Below are positions 8,239-36,477 of a stretch of DNA of 64,000 nucleotides, in pieces (the stretch's first letter is position 1; the number at the start of each line of letters is the position of its first letter). Both the position numbers and the translations under genes were made by a program. The notes beneath the pieces were generated by a model. It ran no database searches, was not told where the DNA came from, and saw nothing but the letters and a program-made list of their open reading frames with translations. The stretch comes from Pseudomonadota bacterium. Its GTDB lineage: Bacteria > Pseudomonadota > Gammaproteobacteria > Burkholderiales > Rhodocyclaceae. Location: positions 1 to 64,000 of the forward strand of contig JAGTRV010000006.1 in NCBI GenBank assembly GCA_018262245.1, written 5' to 3'.

Positions 8239-9080
8239 CTGAATCACCGTTGCGATCGGTATTACTCTCAGCAATGCACCGCGTGCTGGCACCGGTTGTG
8301 CGCGTCATGCTGGCGCATGAAATCACACTGCCGATGGCCATCGAACTGTTGAAGCGCGTTTTCGTCGAAGTGGCCGAACGTGACTTCAAACTCGACAACA
8401 AGGCATCAACCGACAGCCGGATCAACCTGATTACCGGTGTGCACCGCAAAGACGTGAAACGCTTGCGTGAACTGCCGGGTCTCGAAGCCAACCTGCCGCC
8501 AAAAGTATCACTCAGTTCGCAAATCGTTGCCGCCTGGCTGACCGGCCGGCAATGGGTCGATGCCGACAACCAGCCACGACCGCTCTCCCGACTCGGCGGA
8601 AACCATGGCACAGCCTCTTTCGAAGCGCTCGTTGCCAGCATCAGCCAGGACATTCGCCCGCGATCGGTGCTCGATGAATGGCTGCGCCTCGGGGTCGTCA
8701 CCATCAACGAAGCGGATGAGGTCGTGCTCGTCAGCAACGCCTTCATTCCCAAAGACGGCCTGAAAGAAAAACTGGCCTACTACGGCCACAACCTTGGCGA
8801 CCATGCTGCCGCTGCGGCGGATAACGTACTCGCTCAAAACAGCCCATGGTTCGAACGCAGCGTGCACCACGATGGCCTGAGCGAGGAACAGGTCGAGCGA
8901 CTCCGCGGTCGCGCCTCGGAACTCGGCATGCAGGTCCTTACCACCCTCCATACGATGGCCGAGCAGGATCATGCGCTTGACGAAAACAAAGCGCCAGGCA
9001 GCACGGGACAATCCAAACGATTCACTTGTGGTGTCTATTTTTACAGCACCGACGACCAAAACGTAACGCCTGAAAAATGA
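8235..9080 (+). CDS. DUF6502 family protein
   Basis: 281 residues, cytoplasmic, no membrane segment. The sequence (SAMHRVLAPVVRVMLAHEIT near the start, then ITGVHRKDVKRLRE at about 65-80, then VLDEWLRLGVV) matches the DUF6502 proteins as I know them, which carry a winged-helix-like N-terminal part and have no established function. A DNA-binding role is plausible but not shown. Start and stop both overlap neighbours by 4 nt, placing it firmly within the 7984-11275 transcription unit, just before the secreted DUF5666 protein. Confidence 0.7.
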   Translation: MTESPLRSVLLSAMHRVLAPVVRVMLAHEITLPMAIELLKRVFVEVAERDFKLDNKASTDSRINLITGVHRKDVKRLRELPGLEANLPPKVSLSSQIVAAWLTGRQWVDADNQPRPLSRLGGNHGTASFEALVASISQDIRPRSVLDEWLRLGVVTINEADEVVLVSNAFIPKDGLKEKLAYYGHNLGDHAAAAADNVLAQNSPWFERSVHHDGLSEEQVERLRGRASELGMQVLTTLHTMAEQDHALDENKAPGSTGQSKRFTCGVYFYSTDDQNVTPEK

Positions 9081-10432
9081 CACGACTGCTGCTTTCGCTC
9101 CTCATCGCCGCCCTTCCTTTTACCGCGCAGGCCAACCCCTTTTGCGTCGACCCGGAGCAACCGGGCAACAACCATCTGGCGAGAAGCGGCATTGGCGGGA
9201 TCGGCGGCACCGGTGCACCAGCCCAGTCACGCCAGGCAAAAAACGGCGAATCCTCAACCGGCAGCGGAGGCATTGGTGGAACCGGTTCGCCGGCCGTCGG
9301 TGGTGGCATCGGGGGAACCGGCATGCCTGTCGCCGATGGATCGACTGTCGGCATCGTCGGGGTCATCAGCGGCTTCGCGTCGGTTTGCGTCAATGGTCTC
9401 GAAGTTCATTTTGAACAAGGCGTTCCGGTCAGCGAAAACGGTGAAACATCGGGCTCCGACAAGCTCGCTGTCGGCCAGGTCGTCTCCATTGAGGCAGCCA
9501 GTTCAGCCAAGGGGCTGCAAGCCAGAAACATCATGGTCCTGAACGCGCTGGAAGGCCCGATCACCCACCTGCCTCGCGGCGGCAAGGCAATCCAGGTCCT
9601 CGGCCAAACCGTGGCAATCAACCCCGGCACCCGAATCGGCGGACCGGGCCTGGCCGTTGGCCAGATGGTCAAGGTCAGCGGCTTGAGCGGTGCGAACGGC
9701 GCGCTGTTTGCGACGCGGATTCAGGCAGCCCCCGGCTTGAAGCATGCCAGCGTGCTGGGCCCCGTCGTTCAGTCCAAGATCCATGGCGTTACCCTGAGTG
9801 CGCCGCTGGCATCAAACTCGGCACTGGTCAAAGGCAAATGGACGGGCAGCGAACTGGTGCCAACGACGGTGGCGGCGGATCCGACCTATCGTTTCAAAGG
9901 CACGGCCAGCCGAATTCTGCTGGAAGGTCTGGTTCAGGGATCGAATGGCCGAGGCGCAATTCGATCGGGCGACCTTGATTTCTCGGTCACGACAGTTCAA
10001 GCAAAATCCCTGCAATTGAATCAGCGCATCTTTGTCGATTTGCAGGTTGGCAAGAATGGACACCTCGAGGTTGATCATCTTGAGGTGGCAAATGTCGAGG
10101 GGCGTAAAGCGTTGGATAGCGCCCGCGTTGATTCTCGCAACAGCACGATGTCCTCTCGGGAAATTGCCAATCTCGGAACCTTGACTGAAAAGATCGAGAA
10201 GGCTGAGAGGGTTGAGCCGATCGAGAAGGTTGAGAAAGTCGAGAAGGTTGAGAAAGTCGAGAGGGTTGAGCCGGTCGAGAAGGTCGAGAAGGTCGAGAAG
10301 GTCGAGAAGGTCGAGAAGGTCGAGAAGGTCGAGAAGGTCGAGAAGGTCGAGAAGGTCGAGAAAGTCGAGAAAGTCGAGAAGGTCGAGAAGGTCGAGAAGC
10401 CTTCACGAATCGAGCGCCCGGAGAGGCACTAG
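9077..10432 (+). CDS. Secreted DUF5666-domain protein with GIGGTG motifs and an EKV repeat tail
   Basis: 451 residues with a Sec signal peptide (cleavage near AQA-NP, residue 19). After it come three GIGGTG-type glycine motifs (about 38-75), each followed by a residue and Pro. Residues 85-350 hold repeated small beta domains of the DUF5666 kind (for example GVISGFASVCVNG, LAVGQMVKVSG). The C-terminal 80 residues are a low-complexity run of VEK and VER/VEP triplets encoded by 9-bp tandem repeats. The protein should be exported; two Cys (residues 23 and about 102) could form a disulfide. The repeat tail predicts a charged, extended or coiled-coil stalk. Function is unknown. It overlaps the DUF6502 gene by 4 nt. 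Confidence 0.75.
   Translation: MTRLLLSLLIAALPFTAQANPFCVDPEQPGNNHLARSGIGGIGGTGAPAQSRQAKNGESSTGSGGIGGTGSPAVGGGIGGTGMPVADGSTVGIVGVISGFASVCVNGLEVHFEQGVPVSENGETSGSDKLAVGQVVSIEAASSAKGLQARNIMVLNALEGPITHLPRGGKAIQVLGQTVAINPGTRIGGPGLAVGQMVKVSGLSGANGALFATRIQAAPGLKHASVLGPVVQSKIHGVTLSAPLASNSALVKGKWTGSELVPTTVAADPTYRFKGTASRILLEGLVQGSNGRGAIRSGDLDFSVTTVQAKSLQLNQRIFVDLQVGKNGHLEVDHLEVANVEGRKALDSARVDSRNSTMSSREIANLGTLTEKIEKAERVEPIEKVEKVEKVEKVERVEPVEKVEKVEKVEKVEKVEKVEKVEKVEKVEKVEKVEKVEKVEKPSRIERPERH
10274..10399 (+). repeat. 9-bp in-frame tandem repeat (14 units) in the DUF5666 gene
   Basis: Fourteen consecutive units of GTCGAGAAG (Val-Glu-Lys), with only AAG/AAA third-base changes. Before them, from about 10190, lie degenerate units (GTT/GTC, AGG, CCG variants). 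Because the unit is 9 bp, copy-number change by slippage keeps the frame, so the tail length may vary between strains. Confidence 0.9.
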
Positions 10433-11986: not shown

Positions 11987-13063
11987 CTAGCTGAGTCGCC
12001 TTAGCGCCGCCTCGACCAGCCCGCCCATTTCGGAAGTGGAAACCAAACGGTCACCGGCCTGGAAAATATCCCTGGTCCGCGCGCCATTCGTCAATACCGT
12101 CTGGACCGCTGATTCGATCGCATCGGCCATGTCCGGCCGGCCCAAGCTATAGCGGAACATCATCGCTGCCGACAGAATCATGCCCAAGGGATTGGCAACT
12201 CCCTGCCCTGCAATGTCCGGCGCTGAACCATGGCAAGGCTCATACATCCCTTTGTCCTCGACATTGAGCGAGGCCGAAGGCAGCATGCCGATCGAACCGG
12301 TCAGCATCGCCGCTTCGTCCGAGAGAATGTCACCGAACATGTTGCCGGTGAGCAGGACATCAAACTGTTTCGGGTTCTTGACCAGTTGCATGGCCGCGTT
12401 GTCGACCAGCATGTGATCGAGAGTGACATCCGGGAAACGTTCGCCGACCTTGGTCACCACGTCGCGCCAGAGCTGCATGCACTCCAGCACATTCATCTTG
12501 TCGACGGACATCACCTTGCCACTCCGTTGGCGGGCAATCCTGAACGCCATTTCGGCGATCAGTGCGATCTCGGATTCGGAGTACTCCATGGTGTTGTAAC
12601 CGACGCGTTCGAACCCGGAGGTCCGTATCCCGCGCGGCTGGCCAAAATAGATATCGCCCGTCAGTTCCCGGACGATCATCATGTCGAGTCCGCTGACCAC
12701 CTCCGGGCGCAGCGTCGAGGCATTGGCCAGTTCCGGATAGACCTTGATCGGACGCAGATTGGCATTGAGCCCGAGATATTTCCTGATCCCCAGCAAACCG
12801 CGCTCGGGGCGCGACTCGGCCGGCAGTTTGTCCCACTTCGGGCCGCCGACGGCACCGAGCAGGATGGCATCGGCTTCGTCAGCCAGCCTCAAGGTTTCGA
12901 CCGGCAAGGGGCGCCCCGTCTGATCGTAGGCGGCGCCACCCAACAGCCCGTACTCATATTCGATTTTCAGGCCATGGATATCCTTCAGGGCATCGATCAC
13001 CCTGACGGCCTCGGCACAAATTTCGACACCGATGCCGTCCCCGGGAATTACACAGATTTTCAT
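11987..13063 (-). CDS. leuB: 3-isopropylmalate dehydrogenase
   Basis: 358 residues, full length for LeuB. Start taken as the ATG at 13063, giving the family's usual [12 protein letters not shown]; a GTG at 13075 is possible. It catalyses NAD-dependent oxidation and decarboxylation of 3-isopropylmalate in leucine synthesis. Diagnostic motifs include [15 protein letters not shown] (substrate-binding Arg), the [15 protein letters not shown] segment, KMNVLE and [14 protein letters not shown] (metal-binding Asp residues), and the [21 protein letters not shown] site. Cytoplasmic. It stands alone here, without leuC or leuD beside it, and shares no operon link with the envelope cluster: a strong terminator lies just upstream. 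Confidence 0.95.
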
Positions 13064-13078
13064 TTCACAACTCACAGC

Positions 13079-13105
13079 AAAAAAACGGGGGGCCTGAAGC
13101 CCCCC
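13079..13105 (-). terminator. Intrinsic terminator of the YCF48/RND/DUF1302/DUF1329 operon
   Basis: GGGGGGC (13087-13093) and GCCCCCC (13099-13105) form a 7-bp GC stem with a 5-nt loop. On the minus strand it is followed by a run of seven T (13085-13079). It lies about 80 nt past the DUF1329 stop and isolates leuB. A second hairpin, GAGAGTCG/CGACTCTC, is at 13117-13141. Confidence 0.9.
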
Positions 13106-13183
13106 TAAGGTTGGAGGAGAGTCGAACGCAGAACGACTCTCAACCGCAGAGACACCCGTTATCGGGGTACAGGACTATCTGGA

Positions 13184-14500
13184 TCAGTCACCGCCGCGCA
13201 GGTTCTGCACCTGGAAGAGTCCCGGCGGATTCTTCTTCGGATCGACCTGGCCCTTGAACTGACCGGTGGTGCAGTGCTTGGACTGCAGGTCGACCATGGA
13301 GAAGGCGTCATCGATACCGATACCAGCCCCCTTGTTGACCGGCAGGTGATGATCGGGGTGCGACTTGCCGACCATGAAGACCTTCCACAACTCGCCCTTG
13401 CGGTCGTAGATTTCGTTGGCACCGTTCAGGTTCTGCAACTGGACGTCCATGTAGAAGACGCGCTTGCTGACCGGATGGTTGGTATTGACCGGCGCCGCTT
13501 CGAGCACATAGACCTTGCGCAGCTGCCAGGTGCCTTCGGAGAAGCACTTGCCCTGACCGCCCATGTCGACATACTTGTAGCCATCGGCTTCAGCGGGCAT
13601 GTCGGTCGCCAACTTCAGCTCGTCGTGATTCCACATGGGCAACAGGACGTTCTTGGTGCCCTTGTAGGTCCACTTCATGTCGGAGACTCGGCCGTTGTAG
13701 CCCTCGAAGTCTTCGATCATCAGGTCGGAGCCGAGGAAGGCATCGGTCACCTGGCCCTGGGCCAGGCGGCGGACACGGCGCTGGAAGCCGAGGTAGAGGT
13801 AGGCATCGTCCAGCTTGGCATCATCCTCGAAGCGCTGGATCAGCAACTGGGTGTTCTTCAGGTCGCTGGGCTCGTGGGCCTTGGTGTAGATGGCGCGGAA
13901 AATGCCCGACGGGTTCGGCGTGAATTCCGGAATCGGCGCATCCTTGGTCCGGTGCATGAAGTTCAGGAAGTGGAAGTCCCACTTGATGGTCTTTTCCACC
14001 TGCCCGGTCTGCATGTTGCGGTACTTCCAGTAGAACGGCGAAATGACCGCGCCGTCGCCCCAGTTAACACCGTACTTGTAGTTCCAGGCCAGCTTCTCGC
14101 CAGCGCGTGCATCCTTGGCATCAGGCTCCTCCGGGAACGGGCGGCCGGCGACATAGCCGGTGATCATGTCACCCGGCTTGGCACCCAGCTTGGTCTTGTT
14201 CAGGTTGGCCTTGGTCGCGTCGGTGTAGTTCTTGTTGATGGCGAACTGCGTCGTGGCGCCGACCTTCATTTCAAACAGGCCATCCTTGATCAGCTTGTAC
14301 ACACCGGCGCCCAGCACATCCTTGAACTGGTCGGCGTTGGCCTTGTTGATCACGGTTCCGGCGGTCAGCCCCGGAAAGCTCGGCATGCCGGCCTTGTACG
14401 GGTTGAACGAGTTGTCGACATCCGCTTCGGTCGCGGCTTGCGCCACGCCCATCACACCGGCCGCCATCAGCGGCAGCATGGCAATCAAATGCTTTTTCAT
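13184..14500 (-). CDS. DUF1329 family periplasmic protein
   Basis: 438 residues with a clear signal peptide (MLPLMAAGVMGVAQAA). Sequence features fit DUF1329: PYKAGMPSFPGLTAGTVINKANAD early, the long beta-rich middle with YLGFQRRVRRLAQGQVTDAFLGSDLMIEDF, and a C-terminal segment with LPVNKGAGIGIDDAFSMVD. DUF1329 proteins are related in fold to the LolA/LolB lipoprotein carriers, which bind lipid in a half-barrel (family knowledge), so this may carry a hydrophobic ligand across the periplasm. It is the last gene of the operon, 22 nt after the DUF1302 gene, as commonly seen for this pair. Ligand unknown. Confidence 0.88.
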   Translation of the reverse strand: MKKHLIAMLPLMAAGVMGVAQAATEADVDNSFNPYKAGMPSFPGLTAGTVINKANADQFKDVLGAGVYKLIKDGLFEMKVGATTQFAINKNYTDATKANLNKTKLGAKPGDMITGYVAGRPFPEEPDAKDARAGEKLAWNYKYGVNWGDGAVISPFYWKYRNMQTGQVEKTIKWDFHFLNFMHRTKDAPIPEFTPNPSGIFRAIYTKAHEPSDLKNTQLLIQRFEDDAKLDDAYLYLGFQRRVRRLAQGQVTDAFLGSDLMIEDFEGYNGRVSDMKWTYKGTKNVLLPMWNHDELKLATDMPAEADGYKYVDMGGQGKCFSEGTWQLRKVYVLEAAPVNTNHPVSKRVFYMDVQLQNLNGANEIYDRKGELWKVFMVGKSHPDHHLPVNKGAGIGIDDAFSMVDLQSKHCTTGQFKGQVDPKKNPPGLFQVQNLRGGD

Positions 14501-14522
14501 ACTCTTTGTCTCCTCTGTTGGA

Positions 14523-16496
14523 TCAGAACTTGTAATTCAGGCGCAGGAAAATGTCGTTTTCCTTGAACGCGGCACCAATCGGGCCGGCGCGGAAGCGACC
14601 AAGGGGTTCCATGCCACCAAAACCACGCGAATAAGACGTCATCGCGTTGGCATCGCCGTTTGGCGCGGTAAATGGCGCAAACGGATTACAGGCACGGCAG
14701 TCATCGAAATTCCAGTGATCGCGCCCATCAGCCAGCTTGTAGTTGGCGCCAATGGTGATCTTCAGGTCGTTCGTGTAGTTCCACTCCACCTGCGGTGCAA
14801 TCGCCGTTGCTTTGGCGCGGAAGTCATGTGCCAGGATCAGTTGTGGGCTGACCGTACCGTTACGCAGGAAGCCCTTGATCAGCAGGGTGCCGATGAAGTT
14901 GTTTTCCCAATCCGGCATGCCGACCGGGCCGTACTGTTCCTGCTTCCACTCGTGGTTGAAGATATGCTGGTAGAACAACTGAGCCGAGATCAGGGTGGCC
15001 GAAGTTTCGCTGATGAACGGGATGAAGGTCGGACGGTCGACACCGATGACCGCACGGAAAACGTCGTTCTTGGAGTACAGCTGCTCACGCGAGGTGTTGG
15101 AGAACTCTTCACCCTGCGTATAGGCCGCTTCCATGCGAACGGCCGCACCGGCTGCCGGGATCTGGAAGTCCATCGAGCCACCAACCAGGTTGACACGTGG
15201 GAATTCCATGTCGAACGAGATCAGATACGGCCAGGCATTCTGGTATTGGCCGGTAAACGAGTTCGTTGCACGCTTCCCACCGTGCAACGACGGCAGTTGT
15301 GAACGATAGGTCAGCGCATTCAGCGAGAAGGACAGACCATCCATGGTCACACCTTCATACTTGGCACCCAGCTGGGTATTGGAGAGACTCCAGTCCGGCA
15401 GGTTCACGTCCTTCAGACCGATCTGACCAGGACCGAAGTTGGTGGCCAGCAAGGTACCCGGTCCAACGTTGGCGAAGTTGGCCACCGTACCGCCGTTGTC
15501 CCACAGGTTGGCCATGCCACGGAAGAAGCAGCCAGCATCGAGAATGACGTTTGGCGTGCCGCACTGACCGAGATTGTTCGGACGGAACTTGTCGAAGTTC
15601 CAGACGATCTGGAAGTTGCGATCCTGCATCCAGTCGCTGGCCCCCATGCGGTATTCCGCCTGGGCGATCCACATCGGGATGCGGATATCGGACAGTTCGT
15701 CGTAAATATTGTTGCGCGAGAAATCGACCGGGTTGATGACGTCGAGCACGCGGAACAGGTCGGTACGGCCCCAGACCACCTGCTGCTTACCGATCTTGAC
15801 GAAGAGATCCTTGCCGTCACCCAGGTTGAACGTCTTCTTGGCATACAGCTCGCGAATGAAGTCGAGACGGCTGTTGAATTCCGGCATTTCGAGCTCGGAC
15901 AGCTTCTTGTTTCCATAACCGCCGAAATCGCGACAGCCACGGCTGTCGATGTCGCAGGGACGTACCGGTACCGCGAAGCCAACGCCGCCGTCGGTGGCAT
16001 GCCAGCGATCACCGAGAACACGCAAGCCGCTGTTCGGATTATTGGCCCCATAGGAATCGACAAAAGCGTTACCGGCAGCCCCGGGGTAACCCAAGCCTGA
16101 AACCAGCGTATGGGTTACGGGACCAGCACCCCAAGGGCTGGTCACCAAACCGGCTGGCGTTGTCGACTGCGTCGTGATCGACCCACCCGCATCCTTGCCG
16201 TATTCGCTGCTGTTCATGCGATAAACGCCATCCCAGCTACCGCGCAGGATGCTGTGGATACCCCAGCCATCGCCGACCTTCTTGTCGAGTTCGGCCTGCA
16301 TGGTGTTGCGGAACTTGGCCAGACCGGTGTGCTCGCGCCTGACGGTGTGGTTTTCGTAAGTCAGATCGACCTGCCAGGGCGAGGATTCCTCGCCCATTGA
16401 AGGAAGTTCGTTGCCCCACGCCTGCGTTGCGAAGGAGGCGGTGAGCGCCACCGCCAGCAGCGACAGGCGCCTTCCCGTATTCAAGTTTGTCTCCAT
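14523..16496 (-). CDS. DUF1302 family outer-membrane-type protein
   Basis: 657 residues with a signal peptide (LSLLAVALTASFATQAWG). The hallmark segment KIGKQQVVWGRTDLFRVLD followed by VINPVDFSRNNIYDE and IPMWIAQAEYRMG identifies DUF1302. The protein is rich in short alternating strands and ends in FLRLNYKF, a typical aromatic barrel terminus, so an outer-membrane channel is likely. It stands between the RND transporter and the DUF1329 protein, the standard companions. I infer that it forms the outer-membrane part of an envelope-spanning route for a hydrophobic compound. The transported molecule is not known. Confidence 0.88.
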   Translation of the reverse strand: METNLNTGRRLSLLAVALTASFATQAWGNELPSMGEESSPWQVDLTYENHTVRREHTGLAKFRNTMQAELDKKVGDGWGIHSILRGSWDGVYRMNSSEYGKDAGGSITTQSTTPAGLVTSPWGAGPVTHTLVSGLGYPGAAGNAFVDSYGANNPNSGLRVLGDRWHATDGGVGFAVPVRPCDIDSRGCRDFGGYGNKKLSELEMPEFNSRLDFIRELYAKKTFNLGDGKDLFVKIGKQQVVWGRTDLFRVLDVINPVDFSRNNIYDELSDIRIPMWIAQAEYRMGASDWMQDRNFQIVWNFDKFRPNNLGQCGTPNVILDAGCFFRGMANLWDNGGTVANFANVGPGTLLATNFGPGQIGLKDVNLPDWSLSNTQLGAKYEGVTMDGLSFSLNALTYRSQLPSLHGGKRATNSFTGQYQNAWPYLISFDMEFPRVNLVGGSMDFQIPAAGAAVRMEAAYTQGEEFSNTSREQLYSKNDVFRAVIGVDRPTFIPFISETSATLISAQLFYQHIFNHEWKQEQYGPVGMPDWENNFIGTLLIKGFLRNGTVSPQLILAHDFRAKATAIAPQVEWNYTNDLKITIGANYKLADGRDHWNFDDCRACNPFAPFTAPNGDANAMTSYSRGFGGMEPLGRFRAGPIGAAFKENDIFLRLNYKF

Positions 16497-16562
16497 GGAT
16501 CTTAACCCCCAATGGTTGTTAGAAAAGTGCTTGCTGTTCCCCCCGGTCGAGCCGGAGTGTTG

Positions 16563-18953
16563 TTAATCGTTTTCCAGCACACCGTCTTCGTCGTAATGAA
16601 CTGCCGTCACAAACTTGGGTTTGAAGACGACGCACCACGACGGCACGATCAGCACAGCGGCGATCGCATTGACGATGAGCATGAAAGAAAGAAGGATTGC
16701 CGCGTCTGACTGGAAGCGCAGGTCGGACATGAAGATCCACATCACGACGCCGGCAATCAGCGTCACGGCGGTGAAACTGACGGCATAACCCGTCGTTGCC
16801 ACGGCAGTAATGGCTGCCTTTTTCATGTCGCGCAGATGGGCATACTCTTCACGGATGCGGTCCATGAAATAGACCGCGTAGTCGATACCGACCCCGACGC
16901 CGACCGCGATGACCGGCACGGTGTTCACGTTGATGCCGATGTTCAGGGCGCCCATGTAGGCATAGGTCATCAGGGTCGAGAACAGCATCGGCAGGATCAT
17001 CAGCCAGCCGGCGTGCAGCGAGCTGTAATAGATCATGACGATCAGGAAGGCGAGGATCATGACGGCCGGGATGATGATCATGTGGTCGGTATGCAGCGCC
17101 TGGTTACCGGCAGCAGTGACGCCGATGATGCCGCCACCCAGTTCGATGTGCAGACCGGGAACGTCCTTCTCGATCAGCTTGATGCCCTCTTCGGCCAGCG
17201 CCACGATGCGGTTGATCGTGTCGGCCTGATGGTCCTTGTAATAGAACACCATGTCGGCTTCGTTCTCGTCCGGCGTAATGAATTCCTTCAGGGCGCCGGG
17301 AATCGGGCTGGAGGCCATGTAGGCGAACATCAGACCGCCGATTTCGTCGGCACTGTCCGGCAACTGCATCCAGCGCGGATCGTCGTTGTGGGTCAGCTTG
17401 TTGACCACACGGACCACACCGGGCAAGGCCTTGGTGCCGCCCAGTTGCGGATCAGACAGCATGTGCGCCTGGAAGCGTTCGATGGCGGCCATGACATCCG
17501 GGCGCTTGATGCCACCCTTGTCGTCGGTACGGGCCACGACGTGCAGTTCCTCGGACCCCGGGAAGCGGGTGTTGATCGCCTTGGTCGACACGTTGTAGTC
17601 GTGGTCGCGATGGAGCAGCGGCGAGCCCGGCTCGGATTCGCCGAGCTGCACCTTGCCGACCAGATAGGTGCCGCCGATGGCGCCGATCAGGGTCAGAATC
17701 AGGATGGAACGCGCCCCGCCGTCGGTACCACCGGTCAGCGCCATGGCCTTGGCCAGGAAGTTGCGCACGCCTTCGTTGCCGTTCTCGTGCTTCTTCGGCG
17801 CCGGCAGGACAGTCAGGGCCAGCGGCACCATGAAGTGCACCGTGAAGATCACCGAGAAGCCCCAGAAACCAGCCGCCATACCAAGCTTGTGGTTGAACGG
17901 CGCAGCACCAAGGACGAGGACGGCAATGCCGACCGCATCGACGATGATGGCCAGCGAGCCGGGGCGGAACAAGGCATCGAGTGCATTGCGCGCGGCCTTC
18001 TTGCCATCATGGACGATGGCCAGTTCTTCGTAATAGCGCACCACCAGCTGGACACCGTGCGAGGTGGCCCGCGCCGCGATCAGGAAGGGAATCGGCAGCG
18101 ACAACGGTTCCAGATTGATGCCCATCGCCGCCATGAAGCCGAGGCCCCAGATCGACGACAGCGCAATGCCGAGCAGCGGCAGCGCGATGCCGTAGAAGCG
18201 GCGGAAATAGACAATGAGCAGCGTCGCCAGCAGGGCCAGCGTCCAGGCCATGATCTCGACGATCTGGTTCAGGTAGGTGTAGACCCAGCCCGTCAATACC
18301 GGATTACCGGTGACGTAGAGGTGATGACCCGGCTTGGCCAGCGTCTTGCGCACTTCCTGCAGGGCGGCGAAGGTGGTCGGATAATCGATGTCGCCTTCGT
18401 TGAGCTGCGCCTTGATCAGCGCTGCCTTCATGTCCGGCGAGACGAGCAGGCCGTAGATGGTCGGGTTGGCGATGACGTCCTTCTTCAACTGCTCCAGCTC
18501 GGCAACCGTGCGGGTCGGCTTCAGGGGATCGTAATAGGACTCGGAGGCGAAACCGCCCTGGTCATCGAGGAAGACCTTGCGCGCCGTGCGGTGCGTCAGG
18601 CTGTTGACCAGGTTGTGATTGACGCCGGGCAGGTTATCGATGCCCTGTGTGGCCTCGTGGATCAGCTTCAGCGTTTCATCGTTGAAGATGGTGCCCTGCT
18701 CGACTTCGACCGACATGACGATCATGTTGGCGCCGCCGAAGTTCTCCTTCAGGCGGTTGTAGACCTTGATGTAGCCGTGGTTCTGCGGCAGCAGGTCGGA
18801 GAAGTCGGTGAAGATGCGCAGCTTGGGCAGCGCGATACCGAACATGATCGTCACGGCCAGAACCAGCGCCAGCACGATCTTCGGGTTACGGAAAATCCAT
18901 TCCTCGCCCTGATGCAGGCGATGGGTGATGGAATGACGGATTTGGCTCACCAT
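16563..18953 (-). CDS. RND superfamily transporter (MmpL/HpnN-like)
   Basis: 796 residues. One membrane helix near residue 30, a large periplasmic domain to about 225, a block of five helices (about 230-400), a helix near 420, a second periplasmic domain, and a final block of five (about 640-780): the duplicated 6+6 arrangement of RND proteins. The length (about 800 rather than 1050) and the motif VIAVGVGVGIDYAVYFMDRIREE match the MmpL/HpnN/YdfJ type, driven by the proton gradient, rather than the tripartite AcrB type. Operon partners are a YCF48-like lipoprotein upstream and DUF1302/DUF1329 downstream. It probably moves a hydrophobic compound or lipid across the inner membrane; substrate and direction are not evident. 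Confidence 0.9.
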   Translation of the reverse strand: MVSQIRHSITHRLHQGEEWIFRNPKIVLALVLAVTIMFGIALPKLRIFTDFSDLLPQNHGYIKVYNRLKENFGGANMIVMSVEVEQGTIFNDETLKLIHEATQGIDNLPGVNHNLVNSLTHRTARKVFLDDQGGFASESYYDPLKPTRTVAELEQLKKDVIANPTIYGLLVSPDMKAALIKAQLNEGDIDYPTTFAALQEVRKTLAKPGHHLYVTGNPVLTGWVYTYLNQIVEIMAWTLALLATLLIVYFRRFYGIALPLLGIALSSIWGLGFMAAMGINLEPLSLPIPFLIAARATSHGVQLVVRYYEELAIVHDGKKAARNALDALFRPGSLAIIVDAVGIAVLVLGAAPFNHKLGMAAGFWGFSVIFTVHFMVPLALTVLPAPKKHENGNEGVRNFLAKAMALTGGTDGGARSILILTLIGAIGGTYLVGKVQLGESEPGSPLLHRDHDYNVSTKAINTRFPGSEELHVVARTDDKGGIKRPDVMAAIERFQAHMLSDPQLGGTKALPGVVRVVNKLTHNDDPRWMQLPDSADEIGGLMFAYMASSPIPGALKEFITPDENEADMVFYYKDHQADTINRIVALAEEGIKLIEKDVPGLHIELGGGIIGVTAAGNQALHTDHMIIIPAVMILAFLIVMIYYSSLHAGWLMILPMLFSTLMTYAYMGALNIGINVNTVPVIAVGVGVGIDYAVYFMDRIREEYAHLRDMKKAAITAVATTGYAVSFTAVTLIAGVVMWIFMSDLRFQSDAAILLSFMLIVNAIAAVLIVPSWCVVFKPKFVTAVHYDEDGVLEND

Positions 18954-18973
18954 GGTGTTGCTCGCTCCCTGGT

Positions 18974-19939
18974 CTATTTGTTATTGGCTGTGCCGACGGC
19001 ACGCAGCAGGCCACCGGGGCCGCCGATGACGATCGCCGCCTGGCCCGGCAGGGAGGCACCGCCGCCGAGGAACATCGGCAGCGGATCCGGATAAGGCACA
19101 TTGCGCCAGCTGTCGCCTTCGAGGCGGGCAATGACACCGCCGTTGCCGACGGCGAAAGGAGCACCGTCGTGCATGAACAGGCGGTTCAGGGAAGCCTGGG
19201 TGGCATTGACCTGTTTCTGCCAGGTCTGGCCGCCATCGCGGGTATGCAGCATCTGGCCGGCAATCCCGCTGACCCAGCCTTCGCGGGCATCGCGGAACAG
19301 CGCCGCGTAGGGATAGAAGTCGCCCGGAATCTTCGGCCCCTTCTTCCAGGTCGCACCGCCATCGTCGGACATCACCGTCAGGCCAAACTCGCCGAGTGCC
19401 ACCGCCTGCTTGTCGCTGACGAACTGGATGGTGGTGATCTGGGTGTCCTCGCCGAGGTCGGTGACCTGCCAGGTCCTGCCCCGGTCGGCACTGCCGGCGA
19501 TCACGGCATTGGTGCCAGCCACCCACCAGCCACCCTGCGGGCTGCAGGTCACGGCCAACGGCGTGCGCGGCTGCTCGAGCTTGGCCGATTGCCAGTTCTT
19601 GCCTTCGGCATCGGCCGACCACACCTTGTGATAATGGTCGATCGCAACAAAAGTCTTGTCAGCGCAAACCGCAATATCGACCAGCGAAGTCTGGCCGAGG
19701 GCCTGACGCTGCCAGCTTGCGCCCTTGTCGTTCGAAACCAGCGCGACACCGCTCTGGGTGCCGACGACGATAACCTTGTCATTGCTGGCAATGGCCTGGC
19801 TGACGTCGTAACGATGCACCGAGCGCTGACGCTCGGTGGCGATACCGGACATGTCCGGGGCTTGCGTGCAGGCCGACAGCAATGCGCCGGCCACCGCTAT
19901 GCCCAGCGGCAATTGTCGGGTGGCAAATATCCGCCCCAT
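18974..19939 (-). CDS. YCF48-like beta-propeller lipoprotein
   Basis: 321 residues behind a very strong ribosome site (TAAGGAGGAGG). The signal ends in LLSAC, a lipobox, so the mature protein is lipid-anchored at Cys24. The body contains about six repeats of the SxDxGxTW type (NDKGASWQRQ, ADRGRTWQV, DDGGATWKK, RDGGQTWQK), as in YCF48/HCF136-like propellers and BNR repeats. In plastids such proteins assist photosystem II assembly; here, with an RND transporter, DUF1302 and DUF1329, it more likely serves as an accessory or assembly factor of the transport complex. It is the first gene of the operon. Confidence 0.85.
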   Translation of the reverse strand: MGRIFATRQLPLGIAVAGALLSACTQAPDMSGIATERQRSVHRYDVSQAIASNDKVIVVGTQSGVALVSNDKGASWQRQALGQTSLVDIAVCADKTFVAIDHYHKVWSADAEGKNWQSAKLEQPRTPLAVTCSPQGGWWVAGTNAVIAGSADRGRTWQVTDLGEDTQITTIQFVSDKQAVALGEFGLTVMSDDGGATWKKGPKIPGDFYPYAALFRDAREGWVSGIAGQMLHTRDGGQTWQKQVNATQASLNRLFMHDGAPFAVGNGGVIARLEGDSWRNVPYPDPLPMFLGGGASLPGQAAIVIGGPGGLLRAVGTANNK

Positions 19940-20070
19940 AAAACCTCCTCCTTACCGGGCGACCGTTGTTGCGGCACACCCTTGATTTGCTCCGGCTTCC
20001 GCTTTTTCCGGGATTTATTGACATCCCGTGAATTGCAGAAAATCTCGATATTTTTTATTGATTCAATAAT

Positions 20071-20100
20071 GGCCGACACCGGCCAATACCGTCCAATACC
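20071..20100 (-). promoter_or_regulatory. Three tandem 10-bp repeats before the envelope transport operon
   Basis: Read on the minus strand: GGTATTGGAC, GGTATTGGCC and GGTGTCGGCC, three consecutive 10-bp units, one per helical turn, about 130 nt upstream of the YCF48-like start. The first 15 bases (GGTATTGGACGGTAT, plus coordinates 20086-20100) recur exactly at 54640-54654 before meta operon 2. A 7+1+7 palindrome, TTATTGATTCAATAA, follows at 20055-20069, and AATCTCGA at 20041-20048 matches part of the dmpB promoter. These are candidate binding sites; the protein is unknown. The rest of 19940-20188 shows no gene. Confidence 0.5.
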
Positions 20101-20188
20101 ATTTAGTCGTTTTTCTGATACCTGCCGGGTATCGGCCCGGCGCCGCCTGACGGGCCGGGGCTTGCACCCCGCCCGCCATGTCGAATGA

Positions 20189-20380
20189 CTAGCGCCCCAA
20201 GTCCTTTGCGGTCTTGCCGCCGATACCCCACTGGGCCTTGGGTACGTCCTGGATCCAGACCCGGGTGTTCTCCAGCGGAGCACCCAGCGCCTCGGACATG
20301 GCTGCGCTGACCTTTTCGATCAACAGCTTCTTTTGCTCGTCGGTCCGGCCTTCAATCAGGTAGATTTGTGCGAATGGCAT
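20189..20380 (-). CDS. dmpI: 4-oxalocrotonate tautomerase
   Basis: 63 residues, the exact size of the family. Start set at the ATG at 20380, behind GGAGG, so that Pro is residue 2 and becomes the N-terminal catalytic base after Met removal. The active-site Arg11 (EGRT) and Arg39 (TRVWI) equivalents are present and Trp stands at the Phe50 position (QWGIGG). It converts 2-hydroxymuconate to 2-oxo-3-hexenedioate in the dehydrogenase branch of meta cleavage, acting as a hexamer. It is the last gene of meta operon 1, 16 nt after dmpH. Confidence 0.93.
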   Translation of the reverse strand: MPFAQIYLIEGRTDEQKKLLIEKVSAAMSEALGAPLENTRVWIQDVPKAQWGIGGKTAKDLGR

Positions 20381-20396
20381 GTTTCCTCCGGCTTTC

Positions 20397-21185
20397 TCAG
20401 GCGAACTTGACGCTGGTGCTACCCAGCGACTGGATGCGCAGATTGACGTGATCACCTGCACTGACAGCAACTGCCTCGGTGACGCCGCCGGAAAGAATCA
20501 TCGTGCCGGCTGGAATCTCTTCGCCACGGGCGCCAAGATGGTTGGCCAGCATGGCGATGGCTGCCGCCGGATGGCCGAGTACGGCAGCGCCGGCGCCGAT
20601 GGCAACGGGTTCGCCGTTCTTTTCCATGACCACGCCCAGGGTACGCAGATCGAGACCGGCCACCGGCGTCATCTGGCCACCGAGCACGAAGCGCGAGGAC
20701 GAGCAGTTGTCGGCAATGACGCTCTTCAGGTCGAACTTGAAATCGCGGTAGCGCGAATCGATGATCTCGATGCCGGGCATGATGAAATCAGTCGCGGCCA
20801 GCACGGCACCGATATGACAGCCCGGGCCTTTCAGCGCCTTTTTCAGCACAAAGACGATTTCCGGCTCGACCTTCGGGTGGATCAGTTCCTTGATCTTGAT
20901 TTCACCGCCATCGGCGACACTGAAGTAATCGACAAGGAAGCCGAAACACGGGGTTTCGACGCCCATCTGCTTCATCTTGGCATGCGAAGTCAGGCCGGCT
21001 TTCAGGCCAACGACGCGATTGCCGCGGGCCAGTTTGCGGCGCAGAATTTCGTTCTGGATGGCGTAGGCGTCATCCCAGTCCATCTCGGGATGGGCGTCGG
21101 TGATCTTGACCACATCATGGGCTTGCAGCTCGGCGTTTTCGAGCAACTCGGCCAGTTGGCCGATGGTTTGTTGATTCAGTTTCAT
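20397..21185 (-). CDS. dmpH: 2-oxo-3-hexenedioate decarboxylase
   Basis: 262 residues, full length for DmpH/XylI. It decarboxylates 4-oxalocrotonate to 2-hydroxypenta-2,4-dienoate and works in complex with the hydratase DmpE. The metal-site segment [20 protein letters not shown] and the motif [13 protein letters not shown] identify the hydratase/decarboxylase superfamily. DmpH rather than DmpE is supported by its place next to dmpG and dmpI and by [11 protein letters not shown]. It overlaps dmpG by 4 nt. Cytoplasmic. Assignment between the two paralogues rests on context as well as sequence. Confidence 0.9.
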
Positions 21186-22213
21186 TTCAGCAATCCCCGT
21201 TCGCGTGCCATCGTGATGGCGGTATCTTCAATCATGTCTTCCTGCCCGCCGACCATGCCGCGCCGGCCCAGCTCGACCAGGATGTCGCGGGCCGGCACGC
21301 CGTACTTGGCCGAAGCACGCTTGGCAAACAGCAGGAAGGAGCCATAGACGCCGGCATAACCGAGCGTCAGCGCATCGCGGTCGATGCGGATCGGGAAGTC
21401 CATCATCGGCACGACCAGGTCTTCGGCGACGTCGGTGATCTTGGCGACATCCACCCCGGTCTCGATGCCCATCAGGCTGCACACGGCAATCAGCACTTCC
21501 ATCGGCGTGTTGCCGGCCCCGGCACCCAGACCCGCAGCCGCGGCGTCGATGCGGTTGGCCCCGACTTCGATGGCAGCGATCGAGTTGGCGACGCCCATGG
21601 CCAGGTTGTGGTGGCCATGGAAACCAAGTTCGGTTTCCGGCTTCAGCGCGGCACGCACGGCAGACAGGCGTTCCTTGACGCCTTCCGGCAGCAGGTGGCC
21701 GGCCGAGTCGGTGACGTAGATACAGTTGGCCCCGTAGGACTCCATCAGTTTGGCTTGCTTGACCAGGCCTTCGGCACTGTTCATGTGGGCCATCATCAGG
21801 AAACCGACGGTGTCCATGTCCAGCTTGCGGGCCATGGTGATGTGTTGTTCGGAGACGTCAGCCTCAGTACAGTGGGTGGCGACCCGGATGGTATTGACGC
21901 CGAGGTCACGCGCCATCTTCAGGTGATCGACAGTCCCGATACCCGGCAGCAGCAGGGCGGAGACCTTGGCGTTCTTCATCTTCGGGATGACGGCGCCGAG
22001 ATACTCTTCATCGGTATGGGCCGGGAAGCCGTAGTTGACCGAGGAACCACCGAGGCCATCGCCGTGGGTGACTTCGATCAGCGGCACGCCGGCGGCGTCG
22101 AGGCCGGTGGCGATGGCGGTCATCTGGTCGAGGGTCATCAGGTGACGCTTGGGATGCATGCCGTCACGCAGGGTCATGTCGTGGACGGTGACTTTTTTGC
22201 CTTTGAGGGTCAT
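21182..22213 (-). CDS. dmpG: 4-hydroxy-2-oxovalerate aldolase (copy 1)
   Basis: 343 residues. It splits 4-hydroxy-2-oxopentanoate into pyruvate and acetaldehyde and passes acetaldehyde through a tunnel to DmpF. The N-terminal [15 protein letters not shown] carries the catalytic His and metal-binding Asp of the HMG-CoA-lyase-like barrel, [15 protein letters not shown] gives the two metal-ligand His, and the C-terminal [16 protein letters not shown] is the DmpF-contact domain. It lies directly after dmpF in the operon. A second copy is at 59048-60127. Confidence 0.95.
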
Positions 22214-22233
22214 TTGTCTTTTCTCCTTATTCC

Positions 22234-23148
22234 TTAGGCGTGCACCGGCTCAAGCTTGAGCGTGCCCTTGATCATTTCTTCGGCGAACATTTCGGCGGTG
22301 CGGGCACCGGCGGCGGTCATGATGTCGAGGTTGCCGGCGTAGGTCGGCAGGAAGTCGCCGAGACCGGTGACTTCCATGTAGACGGAGACGCGGTTGCCGT
22401 CGAAGACCGGGCCGTTGACCAGGCGGTAGCCCGGCACGTACTTCTGGACTTCCTTGATCATGGCGTGGATGGATTCGGTGATCTTTTCCTGGTCCGGTGC
22501 GGTTTCGGTCAGGCAGTGCACGGTGTCGCGCATGACGAGCGGCGGTTCGGCCGGGTTGATGATGATGATGGCCTTGCCCTTCTTGGCGCCGCCAACCTTT
22601 TCGACGGCACCAGCGGTGGTGCGGGTGAATTCGTCGATGTTCTTGCGGGTGCCGGGGCCGGCGCTCTTCGAAGACACCGTGGCGACGATTTCGCCGTAGG
22701 CGACCGGCTGGACGCGGGAAACGGCAGCGACCATCGGAATGGTGGCCTGGCCACCGCAGGTGACCATGTTGACGTTCATCTCACGGCGACCAACGTGTTC
22801 CTTCAGATTGACCGGCGGCACGCAGAACGGGCCGATGGCGGCGGGGGTCAGGTCGATCATCAGGACGCCGAGGGCATTCAGCTTGCGGCTGTTCTCGGCA
22901 TGGACGTAGGCCGAGGTGGCATCGAAGGCGATCTGAACATTGTCTTCAAGGACGTGGGGCAGGAAACCATCGACCCCGGTGGCGCAGGTCTTCAGGCCCA
23001 TATCGGCGGCACGCTTGAGGCCTTCGGATTCAGGATCGATGCCGATCATCCAGACCGGTTCAAGGAAGGGACTGCGCTTCAGCTTGTAGAGCAGGTCGGT
23101 GCCGATATTGCCCGGGCCAATCAGGGCGCATTTGATTTTTTGGGTCAT
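22234..23148 (-). CDS. dmpF: Acetaldehyde dehydrogenase, acylating (copy 1)
   Basis: 304 residues from the ATG at 23148, giving the usual [19 protein letters not shown] Rossmann start. It converts acetaldehyde plus CoA and NAD to acetyl-CoA. The catalytic Cys is in [13 protein letters not shown] at about residue 130, and the C-terminal [16 protein letters not shown] is characteristic of the DmpF/MhpF family. It pairs with DmpG, which follows 20 nt downstream. A second copy is at 58134-59051. Confidence 0.95.
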
Positions 23149-23173
23149 CAATATTTTCCTTATTGATCGTTGT

Positions 23174-23968
23174 TCAGCAAATGGTGGAAACGATGCCGCC
23201 CTCGACGCGCAGCGCGGCACCGGTCGTCGCAGCCGCTCTCGCGCTGCAGACGTAGGCGACCAGCGCAGCCACTTCGGCCGGATCGATCATGCGTTTGATA
23301 ATTGAGGTCGGGCGCCCTTCGGCGAAGAAACGGCGTTCCATTTCATCGAGGCTGATGCCGGACTCGGCGGCCAGCTTGCCGAAGAATTCGCCAACACCTT
23401 CCGAGCGCGTCGGGCCGGGCAGCACGGCATTGACCGTGACACCGGTGCCGGCGCAGCTCTGGGCCAGACCGCGCGACACGGCGAGCTGGGCCGACTTGGT
23501 CATGCCGTAATGGACCATCTCGCCCGGCGTGTTGATGCCGGATTCGCTGGAGATGAACACGATACGTCCCCAGTTGGCCGCCTTCATGGCCGGCAGGTAA
23601 TGACGGGCCAGACGGACGCCGCTCATCACGTTGACGTCGAAAAAGCGCTGCCATTCGCTGTCAGGGATGGCGTCGAAGGGCACCGGATCGAAGATGCCGA
23701 GGTTGTTGACCAGAATGTCGGCCTGCGGACAGGCGTCGAACAGGAACTGGCAACCTTCCGCCGTGGACAAATCAGCCACCACGCCCTGTACGTCGGCGCC
23801 AGCCACCAGCGAACGCAGGCGGCCAAGCGCCGCATCGACACTTTTCTGGCTGCGACCGTTGATCACCACCCGGGCGCCTTCGCGAGCCAGCTCGGTGGCG
23901 ATGGCAAAGCCGATGCCGACGGTCGATCCGGAAACTACCGCAGTCTTCGATTTGATCTGGAAGTCCAT
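23174..23968 (-). CDS. Short-chain dehydrogenase/reductase in meta operon 1
   Basis: 264 residues from the ATG at 23968. Classical SDR features are complete: cofactor motif [13 protein letters not shown], the NNLG segment, Ser in VFISSESG, and YGMTK as the catalytic Tyr-xxx-Lys. It sits between dmpE and dmpF. SDR genes are not part of the core catechol pathway, so it may oxidise or reduce an alcohol or semialdehyde from substituted catechols; this is inference. Meta operon 2 has its own SDR (60124-60888), but that copy lacks the catalytic Lys. Confidence 0.88.
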
Positions 23969-23982
23969 GTCAGGCTGCCGGC

Positions 23983-24765
23983 TTAGACGAAACGGACCGA
24001 ACAACCGCCGATGCCGCCGATGGTCATGCGCAGGTTGTCGCCCTTGACCACCGGAACCATGGCGCCCATCGCACCGGACAGCACGATATCGCCGGCCTTC
24101 AGGGTGATGCCCAGCTTGCCCAGCGTGTTGGCCAGCCAGACCATGGCATTGACCGGGTGGCCCATCGTCGCGGCGCCAGCGCCGGTGACGACAATCTCGC
24201 CGTTCTTCTCGAGGACCATGCCGCACAGGCCAAGGTCGACATTGCTGATATCGACCAGTTGGTCGCCAAGCACGAAGACGCCGCAGGAAGCGTTGTCGGC
24301 CACGGTGTCCTGGATCTTGATCTTCCAGTCGGTAATACGCGAATCGACGATCTCGAAACAGGCCATGACGCCTTCGGTCGCCGCCAGCACATCGGCCGCC
24401 GTCACGCCCGGCCCTTTCAGATCCTTCTTGAGCAGGAAGGCAATTTCGCCCTCGGCTTTCGGCTGGATCAGCGAGCTCATCTCGATGGATTCGCCTTCGT
24501 TGTAGACCATGCCGTCGAGCAGGTAGCCGAAGTCCGGCTGATGCACGCCGAGCAGGTTCATGACCGGCTTGCTGGTGACGCCGATCTTCTTGCCGATGAC
24601 GCGTTCGCCCTTGGCCAGGCGGCGCGACAGCATCTGCTGCTGGATATGGTAGGCGTCCTCGATGGTGATGTCGAAGCCACGCGAAGTCAGCGGGCTGACC
24701 GTCTTGCCGGCAACCAGCGCTTCGTAGAGCTCGTCGCCGAGTTGGGTGATTTGCGATTGTTCCAT
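23983..24765 (-). CDS. dmpE: 2-hydroxypenta-2,4-dienoate hydratase (2-oxopent-4-enoate hydratase)
   Basis: 260 residues from the ATG at 24765. It adds water to 2-hydroxypentadienoate to give 4-hydroxy-2-oxovalerate. The motif QPKAEGEIAFLLKKDLKGPGV contains the metal-binding Glu pair, and the IEDAYHIQQQ and IVDSRITDWK segments match the hydratase branch. It is clearly related to DmpH at 20397-21185, as expected because the two enzymes are paralogues that form a complex. It is the only hydratase in the window, so meta operon 2 probably depends on it. Confidence 0.92.
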   Translation of the reverse strand: MEQSQITQLGDELYEALVAGKTVSPLTSRGFDITIEDAYHIQQQMLSRRLAKGERVIGKKIGVTSKPVMNLLGVHQPDFGYLLDGMVYNEGESIEMSSLIQPKAEGEIAFLLKKDLKGPGVTAADVLAATEGVMACFEIVDSRITDWKIKIQDTVADNASCGVFVLGDQLVDISNVDLGLCGMVLEKNGEIVVTGAGAATMGHPVNAMVWLANTLGKLGITLKAGDIVLSGAMGAMVPVVKGDNLRMTIGGIGGCSVRFV

Positions 24766-24787
24766 GATGGTTTCTCGTGCTCTTTCG

Positions 24788-25612
24788 TTATGCGGCCAGG
24801 AAATTGCTGACCAGCTGGTTGAAGTCGCGGTTGTGTTCAATCTGGACCCAGTGCCCGCAGCGCCCGAAAACATGCAGTTGCGAGTCGTCGATCCAGTGGT
24901 TCAGGGTCAAGGAATTGCTCAGCGGAATCACCCGGTCGTCACGACCATGGATGACCAGCGTCTTGTGCCTGAGCGCCCGGATATCGGCCTCGGCACTGGC
25001 CATCGCATCGACCCAGCGCTGGCGCGGGGCCGGGAACATGGCCGAAAACGATTCCTGAAAACCGGGCCGGATGCTGGCCTGATAACGCAGTTCGGCCAGC
25101 TCGTCGGTGACCAGACTGCGGTCGTAGGCAAAGATATCGAGCAGGCCACGCATGGCTTGCAATGACGGCTCATAGCCCCACGCCGCATCGAGTTCCGGCG
25201 TCAGTTCGAACGGCACGCCGACGCTGCCCATCAATACCAGCCGACGCACGCGCTGCGGGTGGCGGATGGCCAGCGCCAGTGCAATGGCGCCACCGAAGGA
25301 GTTGCCGATCAGGTCGGTCTGTTCGATGCCCAGTGCGTCAAGCAGACCGACTGCCTGATTGACCCAGCCATCGACACCGTATTCGATATCGGCCGGCCGC
25401 TCGGTATAGCCGAAGCCAACCATGTCCGGCGCGATGGCGCGGCAGGTCTTGGCCAGCTCCGGCAGAACCAGACGCCAGTTGGCCCATGCCGTCACCCCCG
25501 GGCCGGAGCCGTGGATGAGCAGCACCGGGGCCCCGCTACCGAGATCGTGATAGTTGGTTTCGATGCCGCCAGCGACGATGCGCTGGCCGATTTCAGGAGA
25601 GTTTGCCGACAT
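24788..25612 (-). CDS. dmpD: 2-hydroxymuconic semialdehyde hydrolase
   Basis: 274 residues, alpha/beta-hydrolase fold. It hydrolyses ring-cleavage semialdehydes, needed for ketones formed from 3-substituted catechols and optional for catechol itself. The oxyanion segment LIHGSGPGVTAW, the nucleophile elbow GNSFGG (Ser near residue 104), HGRDDRVIP (Asp) and GRCGHWVQIEH (His) complete the triad. It stands 22 nt upstream of dmpE and 12 nt after dmpC. No counterpart exists in meta operon 2. Confidence 0.93.
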   Translation of the reverse strand: MSANSPEIGQRIVAGGIETNYHDLGSGAPVLLIHGSGPGVTAWANWRLVLPELAKTCRAIAPDMVGFGYTERPADIEYGVDGWVNQAVGLLDALGIEQTDLIGNSFGGAIALALAIRHPQRVRRLVLMGSVGVPFELTPELDAAWGYEPSLQAMRGLLDIFAYDRSLVTDELAELRYQASIRPGFQESFSAMFPAPRQRWVDAMASAEADIRALRHKTLVIHGRDDRVIPLSNSLTLNHWIDDSQLHVFGRCGHWVQIEHNRDFNQLVSNFLAA

Positions 25613-25624
25613 GTTCGGATCGCC

Positions 25625-27079
25625 TTACAGCTTGATGCAGACGTTCTTGAGTTCGGTATAGAACTCAAGCGAATGCACGCCACCCTCGCGGCCGATACCG
25701 GACTGCTTGGCGCCACCGAACGGCGTGCGCAAGTCGCGCAGGAACCAGCTGTTCACCCAGACCAGGCCGGCTTCGATACGACCAGCAACGCGGTGAGCGC
25801 GATTGACGTCCTGCGTAAAGACCGAGGCGGCCAGACCGTAGGTCGTGTTGTTGGCGCGCTTGATCACTTCATCTTCGCTGTCGAACGGCATCACGGTCGT
25901 GCAAGGTCCGAAGATCTCTTCACGAACCACAGCGGCGTTGTCGTCGAGACCGGTCCAGATGGTCGGCTGCACCCAGGCACCGTTGGCCAGCTCGCCCGGC
26001 ATGTCGGGGATGCCACCACCGGTGACCACCGTGGCGCCCTCCTCGACGGCCTTCTTGTAATAGGACAAGACCTTGTTGCGGTGTTCCTGGCTGACCAATG
26101 GCCCCATGTTGGCGCTCGGGTCGCTCGGCACGCCGAGTTTGAGCTTTTCGGCACCGGCCTTCAGGGCTGCCACGAAGGTCTCGAAGAACGGGCGCTCGAC
26201 ATAGACACGCTCGGTGCCCAGGCAGACCTGGCCACAGTTCGAGAAGCAGGAGCGCAGCGTGGCTTCGATCGCGACATCCAGATTGGCGTCGGCAAAAACG
26301 ATGGCCGGGTTCTTGCCGCCCATTTCCAGCGATACCGGGCGGGCACCGTCGGCAGCGGCCTTCATGATCGCAGCACCGGTACGGGTCTCGCCAGTAAAGG
26401 TGATCGCATTCACATTCTGGTTGGTGGTCAGGAATTCGCCGGCCGAATTCGGCCCGAAACCATGCACGACGTTGTAGACGCCCTTCGGCACGCCGCAGGC
26501 ATTCATCACTTCGCCGAGCAGGGTGGCCGTCGACGGTGTTTCTTCCGACGGTTTGACGACGACCGTGTTGCCGCAGGCCAGCGCCGGACCAACCTTCCAG
26601 GTCATCAGCAGCAGCGGCAGGTTCCACGGGCAGACCACACCGACCACGCCCACCGGGCGACGGATCGCGTAGTTCAGCGCGCCCTTGCCATCCGGCGTCG
26701 CCATTTCGAAGAACTCGGTCGGCGCGTTCTTGATCACGTCGGCGAAAATCTTGAAATTGGCTGCGCCGCGCGGGATGTCGATGTGAGAAGCCAAGCTCTT
26801 CGGCTTGCCGGTATCGGCACATTCGGCTTCGAGGAATTCGTCGAAGCGACGGGTAATCTCGTCGGCCACCTTGTTCAGGATATCGGTGCGCTCGACCACG
26901 GTCATCTTGCCCCACGGGCCTTCCAGCGCATCGTGCGCTGCCTTGACCGCGGCATCAACCTCGGCCTTGCCGGCTTCATGCACCATGCCGATCAGCGAGT
27001 TGTCGAGCGGCGTCCGCTTCTCGAACTGCTTCCCTGTAGCAACGAACTCGCCGTTAATAAAATTCAGGATCTGTTTCAT
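25625..27079 (-). CDS. dmpC: 2-hydroxymuconic semialdehyde dehydrogenase (copy 1)
   Basis: 484 residues from the ATG at 27079, which gives the family start MKQILNFINGEF; the open frame upstream overlaps the HbpS-like gene and is not coding. It oxidises 2-hydroxymuconate semialdehyde to 2-hydroxymuconate with NAD. Aldehyde dehydrogenase motifs are intact: VVCPWNLPLLLMTWK, LEMGGKNP (catalytic Glu), FSNCGQVCLGTERVY (catalytic Cys) and the C-terminal PFGGAKQSGIGREGG. A close paralogue is at 56649-58118. Confidence 0.95.
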   Translation of the reverse strand: MKQILNFINGEFVATGKQFEKRTPLDNSLIGMVHEAGKAEVDAAVKAAHDALEGPWGKMTVVERTDILNKVADEITRRFDEFLEAECADTGKPKSLASHIDIPRGAANFKIFADVIKNAPTEFFEMATPDGKGALNYAIRRPVGVVGVVCPWNLPLLLMTWKVGPALACGNTVVVKPSEETPSTATLLGEVMNACGVPKGVYNVVHGFGPNSAGEFLTTNQNVNAITFTGETRTGAAIMKAAADGARPVSLEMGGKNPAIVFADANLDVAIEATLRSCFSNCGQVCLGTERVYVERPFFETFVAALKAGAEKLKLGVPSDPSANMGPLVSQEHRNKVLSYYKKAVEEGATVVTGGGIPDMPGELANGAWVQPTIWTGLDDNAAVVREEIFGPCTTVMPFDSEDEVIKRANNTTYGLAASVFTQDVNRAHRVAGRIEAGLVWVNSWFLRDLRTPFGGAKQSGIGREGGVHSLEFYTELKNVCIKL

Positions 27080-27101
27080 TCTGTCCTCTGTGGTTTTGTT
27101 G

Positions 27102-28456: not shown

Positions 28457-28518
28457 TTGTCTGCTCCTCTTTTTTAGATTTGATAACTGCACAAAATCCA
28501 TGCAATCGATTTAACGCA

Positions 28519-36464: not shown

Positions 36465-36477
36465 CGGAGCGGCAGAC

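Follow-up and report, generated by a model that had tools for sequence, protein, structure and literature searches.

A putative AmeABCD-type envelope transporter in the predicted phenol and meta-cleavage regulon of a Rhodocyclaceae bacterium

Here we describe a four-gene cassette that probably (we would give it about 60%) encodes a tetrapartite envelope transporter of the AmeABCD type belonging to the phenol/meta-cleavage regulon, judging from sequence. At the promoter lie a bipartite LysR-type operator, shared in the genome only with a second meta-cleavage operon, and an AphS-type repressor box. The link between such a cassette and the phenol regulon has been predicted before: the composition of AmeABCD (PMC6394551) and a prediction of AphT/AphS control for Dechloromonas aromatica, made in 2019 (PMC6449761), have both been published. 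Added here are the fixed two-part geometry of the operator, family-wide counts, the co-occurrence of operator and regulator, and a wider view of cassette exchange.

Organization of the cassette

The window (the whole stretch of 64,000 nucleotides analysed) belongs to a 3.78-Mb assembly that is 84% complete. The cassette consists of four minus-strand genes (19939–13184) separated by gaps of about 20–66 bp, and these genes and a strong terminator are present as the first-pass annotation had described them. That annotation also placed the cassette just downstream of meta operon 1, and indeed the last gene of this operon, for 4-oxalocrotonate tautomerase (4-OT; stop near 20189), lies about 250 bp upstream on the same strand.

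13087–13105, minus strand: intrinsic terminator of the cassette (8-bp stem with 7 G-C pairs, 3-nt loop, T7 tail)
13184–14500, minus strand: DUF1329 protein, putative periplasmic LolA-like shuttle, AmeB-type (PF07044, E=8.3e-75; PF17131 LolA_like, E=1.2e-13)
14523–16496, minus strand: DUF1302 protein, predicted outer-membrane barrel, AmeA-type (PF06980, E=1.9e-47)
16563–18953, minus strand: RND/MmpL HAE3-type transporter, AmeD-type (PF03176, E=1.1e-32; TIGR00921, E=8.5e-49, below cut-off)
18974–19939, minus strand: YCF48-like (PSII_BNR) lipoprotein, AmeC-type (PF14870, E=5.6e-18; lipobox LSAC, Cys24)
20189–28501, minus strand: meta operon 1 (C23O, semialdehyde dehydrogenase, hydrolase, hydratase/decarboxylase, lower pathway, 4-OT)
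54733–60888, plus strand: meta operon 2 (HpaI-type aldolase, catechol 2,3-dioxygenase, semialdehyde dehydrogenase, acetaldehyde dehydrogenase, hydroxyoxovalerate aldolase and SDR, by Pfam)

The four families gathered in one cassette, and their location in a catabolic gene cluster, are those of AmeABCD from Castellaniella defragrans 65Phen (DUF1302, DUF1329, COG4447/YCF48 and an HAE3 RND protein), a monoterpene exporter described in 2018 (PMC6394551). The two differ in that phenol/meta genes adjoin the cassette here and monoterpene genes there, and in that the gene order here is C-D-A-B.

Right after the cassette terminator starts a leuB-type gene (11987–13075), a second copy of which, 68% identical, sits on another contig (G000:C75). 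Elsewhere in the window are a DUF5666 protein (9077–10432) with a long repetitive C-terminal tail rich in lysine and glutamate (KVEKVE), and a Protoglobin-GGDEF-EAL protein (39878–42085) near the nos gene region (about 45–51 kb).

Architecture of the cassette promoter

The 15-mer GGTATTGGACGGTAT is found at 20100–20086 (minus strand) and 54640–54654 (plus strand), oriented alike towards the genes that follow. Its occurrence otherwise in the window only before meta operon 2, reported earlier, was borne out, and the whole 3.78-Mb assembly holds no third exact copy. With a chance expectation of 0.05 (458-bp region against the window), the shared 15-mer by itself is weak evidence; it is the comparison of genomes that makes the motif real. 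The full operator reads ATACC-N5-GGTAT-N17-GGTATTGGACGGTAT, a bipartite LysR-type site of which the 15-mer forms the promoter-proximal half.

20040–20053, minus strand: AphS/BphS-type repressor box AAATATCGAGATTT, 0 mismatches to AAATmTCGAkATTT (PMC6449761)
20066–20071, minus strand: candidate -10 element CATTAT, proposed from conservation
20086–20100, minus strand: proximal half of the operator, GGTATTGGACGGTAT
20118–20132, minus strand: distal half of the operator, ATACC-N5-GGTAT (equivalent to ATAC-N7-GTAT, T-N11-A), 0 mismatches
54608–54654, plus strand: second bipartite operator copy, before meta operon 2

A search with the 15-mer alone, degenerate at two positions, covered 61 genus genomes and previously collected loci, after which the upstream sequence was inspected. 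In 32 distinct instances from the genus, the distal half preceded the 15-mer by exactly 32 bp. Seven pattern matches that did not have a distal half were set aside, one of them at the window site, where a third repeat overlaps. Across the family, 41 of 299 genomes, representing 20 genera, carry the operator, mostly in two copies each, and a reversed control pattern gave no match among the same 299 genomes. The source genome has exactly two full operators free of mismatches, one before the cassette and one before meta operon 2, and in relatives the 15-mer is kept upstream of the YCF48 gene while its flanks have diverged.

When the 32 operators were aligned, conservation further downstream was best at +29 to +34, which read [CT]A[TA]A[GT]T. 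Because this element occupies the place of a -10 box, we infer a transcription start near 20059, which would centre the operator halves near -66 (distal) and -34 (proximal), the usual geometry of LysR-type activators. We take the distal half, ATAC-N7-GTAT, to be a box of the BenM/CatM type; the T-N11-A spacing expected of the AphT regulon is likewise present at the cassette promoter. The term ATAC-N7-GTAT appears in a paper on CatM and BenM (PMC6628147). A simple consensus scan found no sigma-54 -24/-12 sites before the cassette, and a sigma-70 scan found no promoter there; the -10-like element came only from the operator alignment.

The AphS-type box (20053–20040), a palindrome of the kind that marks promoters of the AphS regulon, is the sole match in the window at two mismatches or fewer and spans about +6 to +19 from the proposed start. 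It recurs at many cassettes of the genus and is absent from those sites before operon 2 that were inspected. A PAS-domain protein (54037–54555) is encoded immediately ahead of the operon 2 operator; among the loci searched, no site other than that of the window (L003) has it.

Candidate regulators and their co-occurrence with the operator

Three regulator genes in the window could correspond to AphS, AphR and AphT.

28639–29346, plus strand: GntR/FCD regulator, candidate AphS (PF00392 and PF07729)
34788–36464, plus strand: XylR/DmpR-type (AphR) sigma-54 activator gene (PF06505, PF02830, PF00158)
36454–37380, plus strand: LysR-type regulator (CbnR/BenM/CatM type), probable AphT orthologue (PF00126/PF03466)

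The LysR gene overlaps the end of the upstream DmpR/XylR-type gene. The solved structures nearest to its product are CbnR (1ixc, E=3.9e-60) and BenM (E=2e-50), and also CatM; the window encodes a CatR/ClcR-type LysR protein together with aromatic genes, as in the AphT regulon. The GntR protein is a candidate AphS by family and context, and the interval separating its gene from the divergent C23O gene contains a weak AphS-like box at 28552, with 3 mismatches. A two-component regulator (TodT/StyR-like) had also been considered and was dropped because of the T-N11-A geometry and the presence of a CbnR-type gene.

An orthologue of the LysR gene was detected in 17 of the 19 genus genomes that have the operator versus 3 of the 42 that do not (Fisher p = 3e-10, with kinship among the genomes ignored). 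The exceptions are two operator genomes in which no LysR orthologue was detected and three LysR genomes lacking an exact operator. In distant genera, an orthologue with 57–65% identity is divergent beside operator 1, operator 2 precedes a lower meta operon, and most of these genera show matches to a distant cassette after operator 1. At two such loci (L164 and L165) Pfam identifies DUF1302, DUF1329, YCF48 and MMPL genes in that order, the products being about 25% identical to those of the window.

The arrangement resembles the AphT/AphS/AphR regulon of D. aromatica RCB in the contents of its two operons and in the predicted regulators. There, AphT was predicted to control an operon of an HpaI-type (COG3836) aldolase, aphB, aphC and a COG1028 gene, and a second one, COG4447-COG1033-PF07044-DUF1302, predicted to be under AphS too; in Azoarcus BH72, distant homologues of the four cassette genes were placed under AphT (PMC6449761).

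Gene neighbourhood in relatives

Eighty relatives were found via DUF1329, 62 of which had the whole cassette with 3 kb or more of flanking sequence on one side. Of these 62, 56 have a gene of the meta pathway or for phenol hydroxylase within 5 kb and 50 have one within 1 kb, leaving six with no aromatic gene inside 5 kb. Among 16 genomes in which the locus was truncated or no meta gene was nearby, 13 still encode a C23O homologue; none was found in the other three, by a single absence test. The first-pass annotation had named the same operon in relatives lacking the aromatic genes and the shared motif as a finding that would speak against its proposal; relatives with the cassette and no aromatic genes were mostly not encountered. 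In Zoogloea oleivorans, DUF1302 and DUF1329 genes have been drawn in a phenol hydroxylase cluster (PMC7012976).

The position of the cassette varies: it may follow 4-OT, sit between phenol hydroxylase and C23O (Thauera) or come after hydroxyoxovalerate aldolase (Polynucleobacter). Mapped onto the RND tree, these arrangements require 14 changes, against a minimum of 7, which argues that the association with aromatic genes survived rearrangement. As a control, 11 genus regions with distant DUF1329 paralogues contained no meta genes, some of these contigs being short. Two genus genomes (L189 and L190) have close cassettes, with RND proteins 80% identical, and no meta genes in the region examined.

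Features of the cassette proteins

The YCF48-like protein has a lipobox (LSAC) at Cys24, and a simple regular expression finds a lipobox in 44 of 58 homologues. For the RND protein the best family match is TIGR00921 (HAE3), at 166 bits and below the cut-off of 351.9; by sequence it is a related but divergent branch of HAE3. Ser298-His299 in TM4 and Asp691-Tyr692 in TM10 are invariant in 58/58 homologues, and the TM4 Ser-His pair is also present in the distant RND homologue of L165. MmpL3 has Asp-Tyr at both the TM4 and the TM10 position. Since Ser-His stands where MmpL3 has Asp-Tyr in TM4, this lineage may relay protons from one side only. The protein is like HpnN and MmpL3 in being an inner-membrane RND transporter of hydrophobic molecules by type, with weak sequence matches, and unlike these HAE3/MmpL proteins in its TM4 pair. 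To our knowledge, neither HpnN nor MmpL3 has a dedicated LolA-like shuttle and barrel encoded with it in one cassette.

The AlphaFold2 (AF2) model of the DUF1329 protein (pLDDT 84) has a LolA fold and falls within the LolA superfamily, with Foldseek matches to LolA3 (9tp6) and a DUF1329 protein (4z48) at E values of 1e-13 or better. The DUF1302 protein is modelled by AF2 as a barrel (pLDDT 79) that Foldseek matches to porins and TonB receptors and not to TolC, and its C-terminal Phe is found in 59/59 homologues. On the strength of this predicted porin/TonB-like fold a continuous channel of the HAE1 type was rejected, and no Pfam domain of a TolC-like channel or membrane fusion protein was found in the cassette.

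Proposed mechanism and alternatives

Membership of the cassette in an aromatic regulon, as earlier proposed, has strong sequence support that goes far past the shared 15-mer: the bipartite LysR-type operator, the AphS box, the regulator co-occurrence and the conserved gene neighbourhoods. We propose that the distal half of the operator serves as the binding site of the AphT-like LysR protein, which, with a ring-cleavage metabolite bound, would engage the proximal half and so activate transcription; until substrate is present, the AphS-like GntR protein would block transcription. The proton-driven RND protein may then pick up hydrophobic aromatics or products of the pathway out of the inner membrane and hand them to the DUF1329 shuttle, which would deliver them to the DUF1302 barrel, the YCF48 lipoprotein serving as an assembly part; the envelope would thereby be protected during growth on aromatics.

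The most likely job of the cassette would be to export hydrophobic aromatics or products of the pathway. Export of apolar compounds is favoured because deletion of ameABCD lowered monoterpene tolerance and raised Nile Red accumulation (PMC6394551). Two points count against it. In Pseudomonas putida, PP_0765, PP_0766, PP_2018 and PP_2019 (DUF1302 and DUF1329 proteins plus one periplasmic and one efflux-transport component) were proposed to form a transport system, and the DUF1302/DUF1329 and RND homologues are required for growth on Tween 20, a role that is not plainly efflux (PMC10866462); unlike the window cassette, these genes are split across two loci and tied to Tween 20 growth. The other point concerns the substrate itself: phenol is fairly water-soluble. 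A functional parallel is the EtpR-controlled putative solvent efflux cluster of Aromatoleum aromaticum EbN1, induced with p-ethylphenol catabolism (PMC4630880), which unlike the cassette is under sigma-54 control and is likened to it by description and not by protein families.

The cassette might instead move membrane lipids, with the RND protein and the LolA-like shuttle repairing or stiffening the outer membrane during aromatic growth. The HAE3 family search does name HpnN (hopanoids) and BstA (sterols), as weak matches, and DUF1329 has a LolA fold; we nevertheless consider this unlikely, as the cassettes adjoin substrate-specific catabolic genes and AmeABCD affected tolerance of apolar monoterpenes and dye accumulation (PMC6394551). 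Somewhat less probable still is import of poorly soluble substrates such as alkylphenols, in which barrel and shuttle would work inward to feed the pathway. Co-regulation with catabolism would suit import, but all RND proteins of known direction that we are aware of export. The Tween 20 requirement in P. putida (PMC10866462) would suit it as well, against which the characterised relative, AmeABCD, acts as an exporter (PMC6394551). That the cassette is only a neighbour, its motif a chance or inherited repeat and its expression read-through from meta operon 1, would fit the chance expectation of 0.05 for the 15-mer alone, the same-strand position behind that operon and several relatives with a cassette close behind 4-OT and no bipartite operator, but is highly improbable given an operator conserved at fixed spacing in 20 genera and tied to a LysR gene, with an AphS box downstream.

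Cassette exchange and significance

Depending on the genus, the same AphT operator precedes one or the other of two cassettes that are only about 25% identical and differ in gene order. It is conceivable, though we hold this tentatively, that the role of envelope exporter was retained under one regulator–operator pair even as one exporter replaced another. If so, shuttle-type export (from RND protein to LolA-like carrier to barrel, with no continuous channel) would be a required companion of phenol meta-cleavage and a distinct class of envelope transport. A widespread transporter would gain a defined regulator, operator and metabolic trigger, which would make its substrate and direction directly testable, with a bearing on the solvent tolerance of bacteria used in phenol clean-up.
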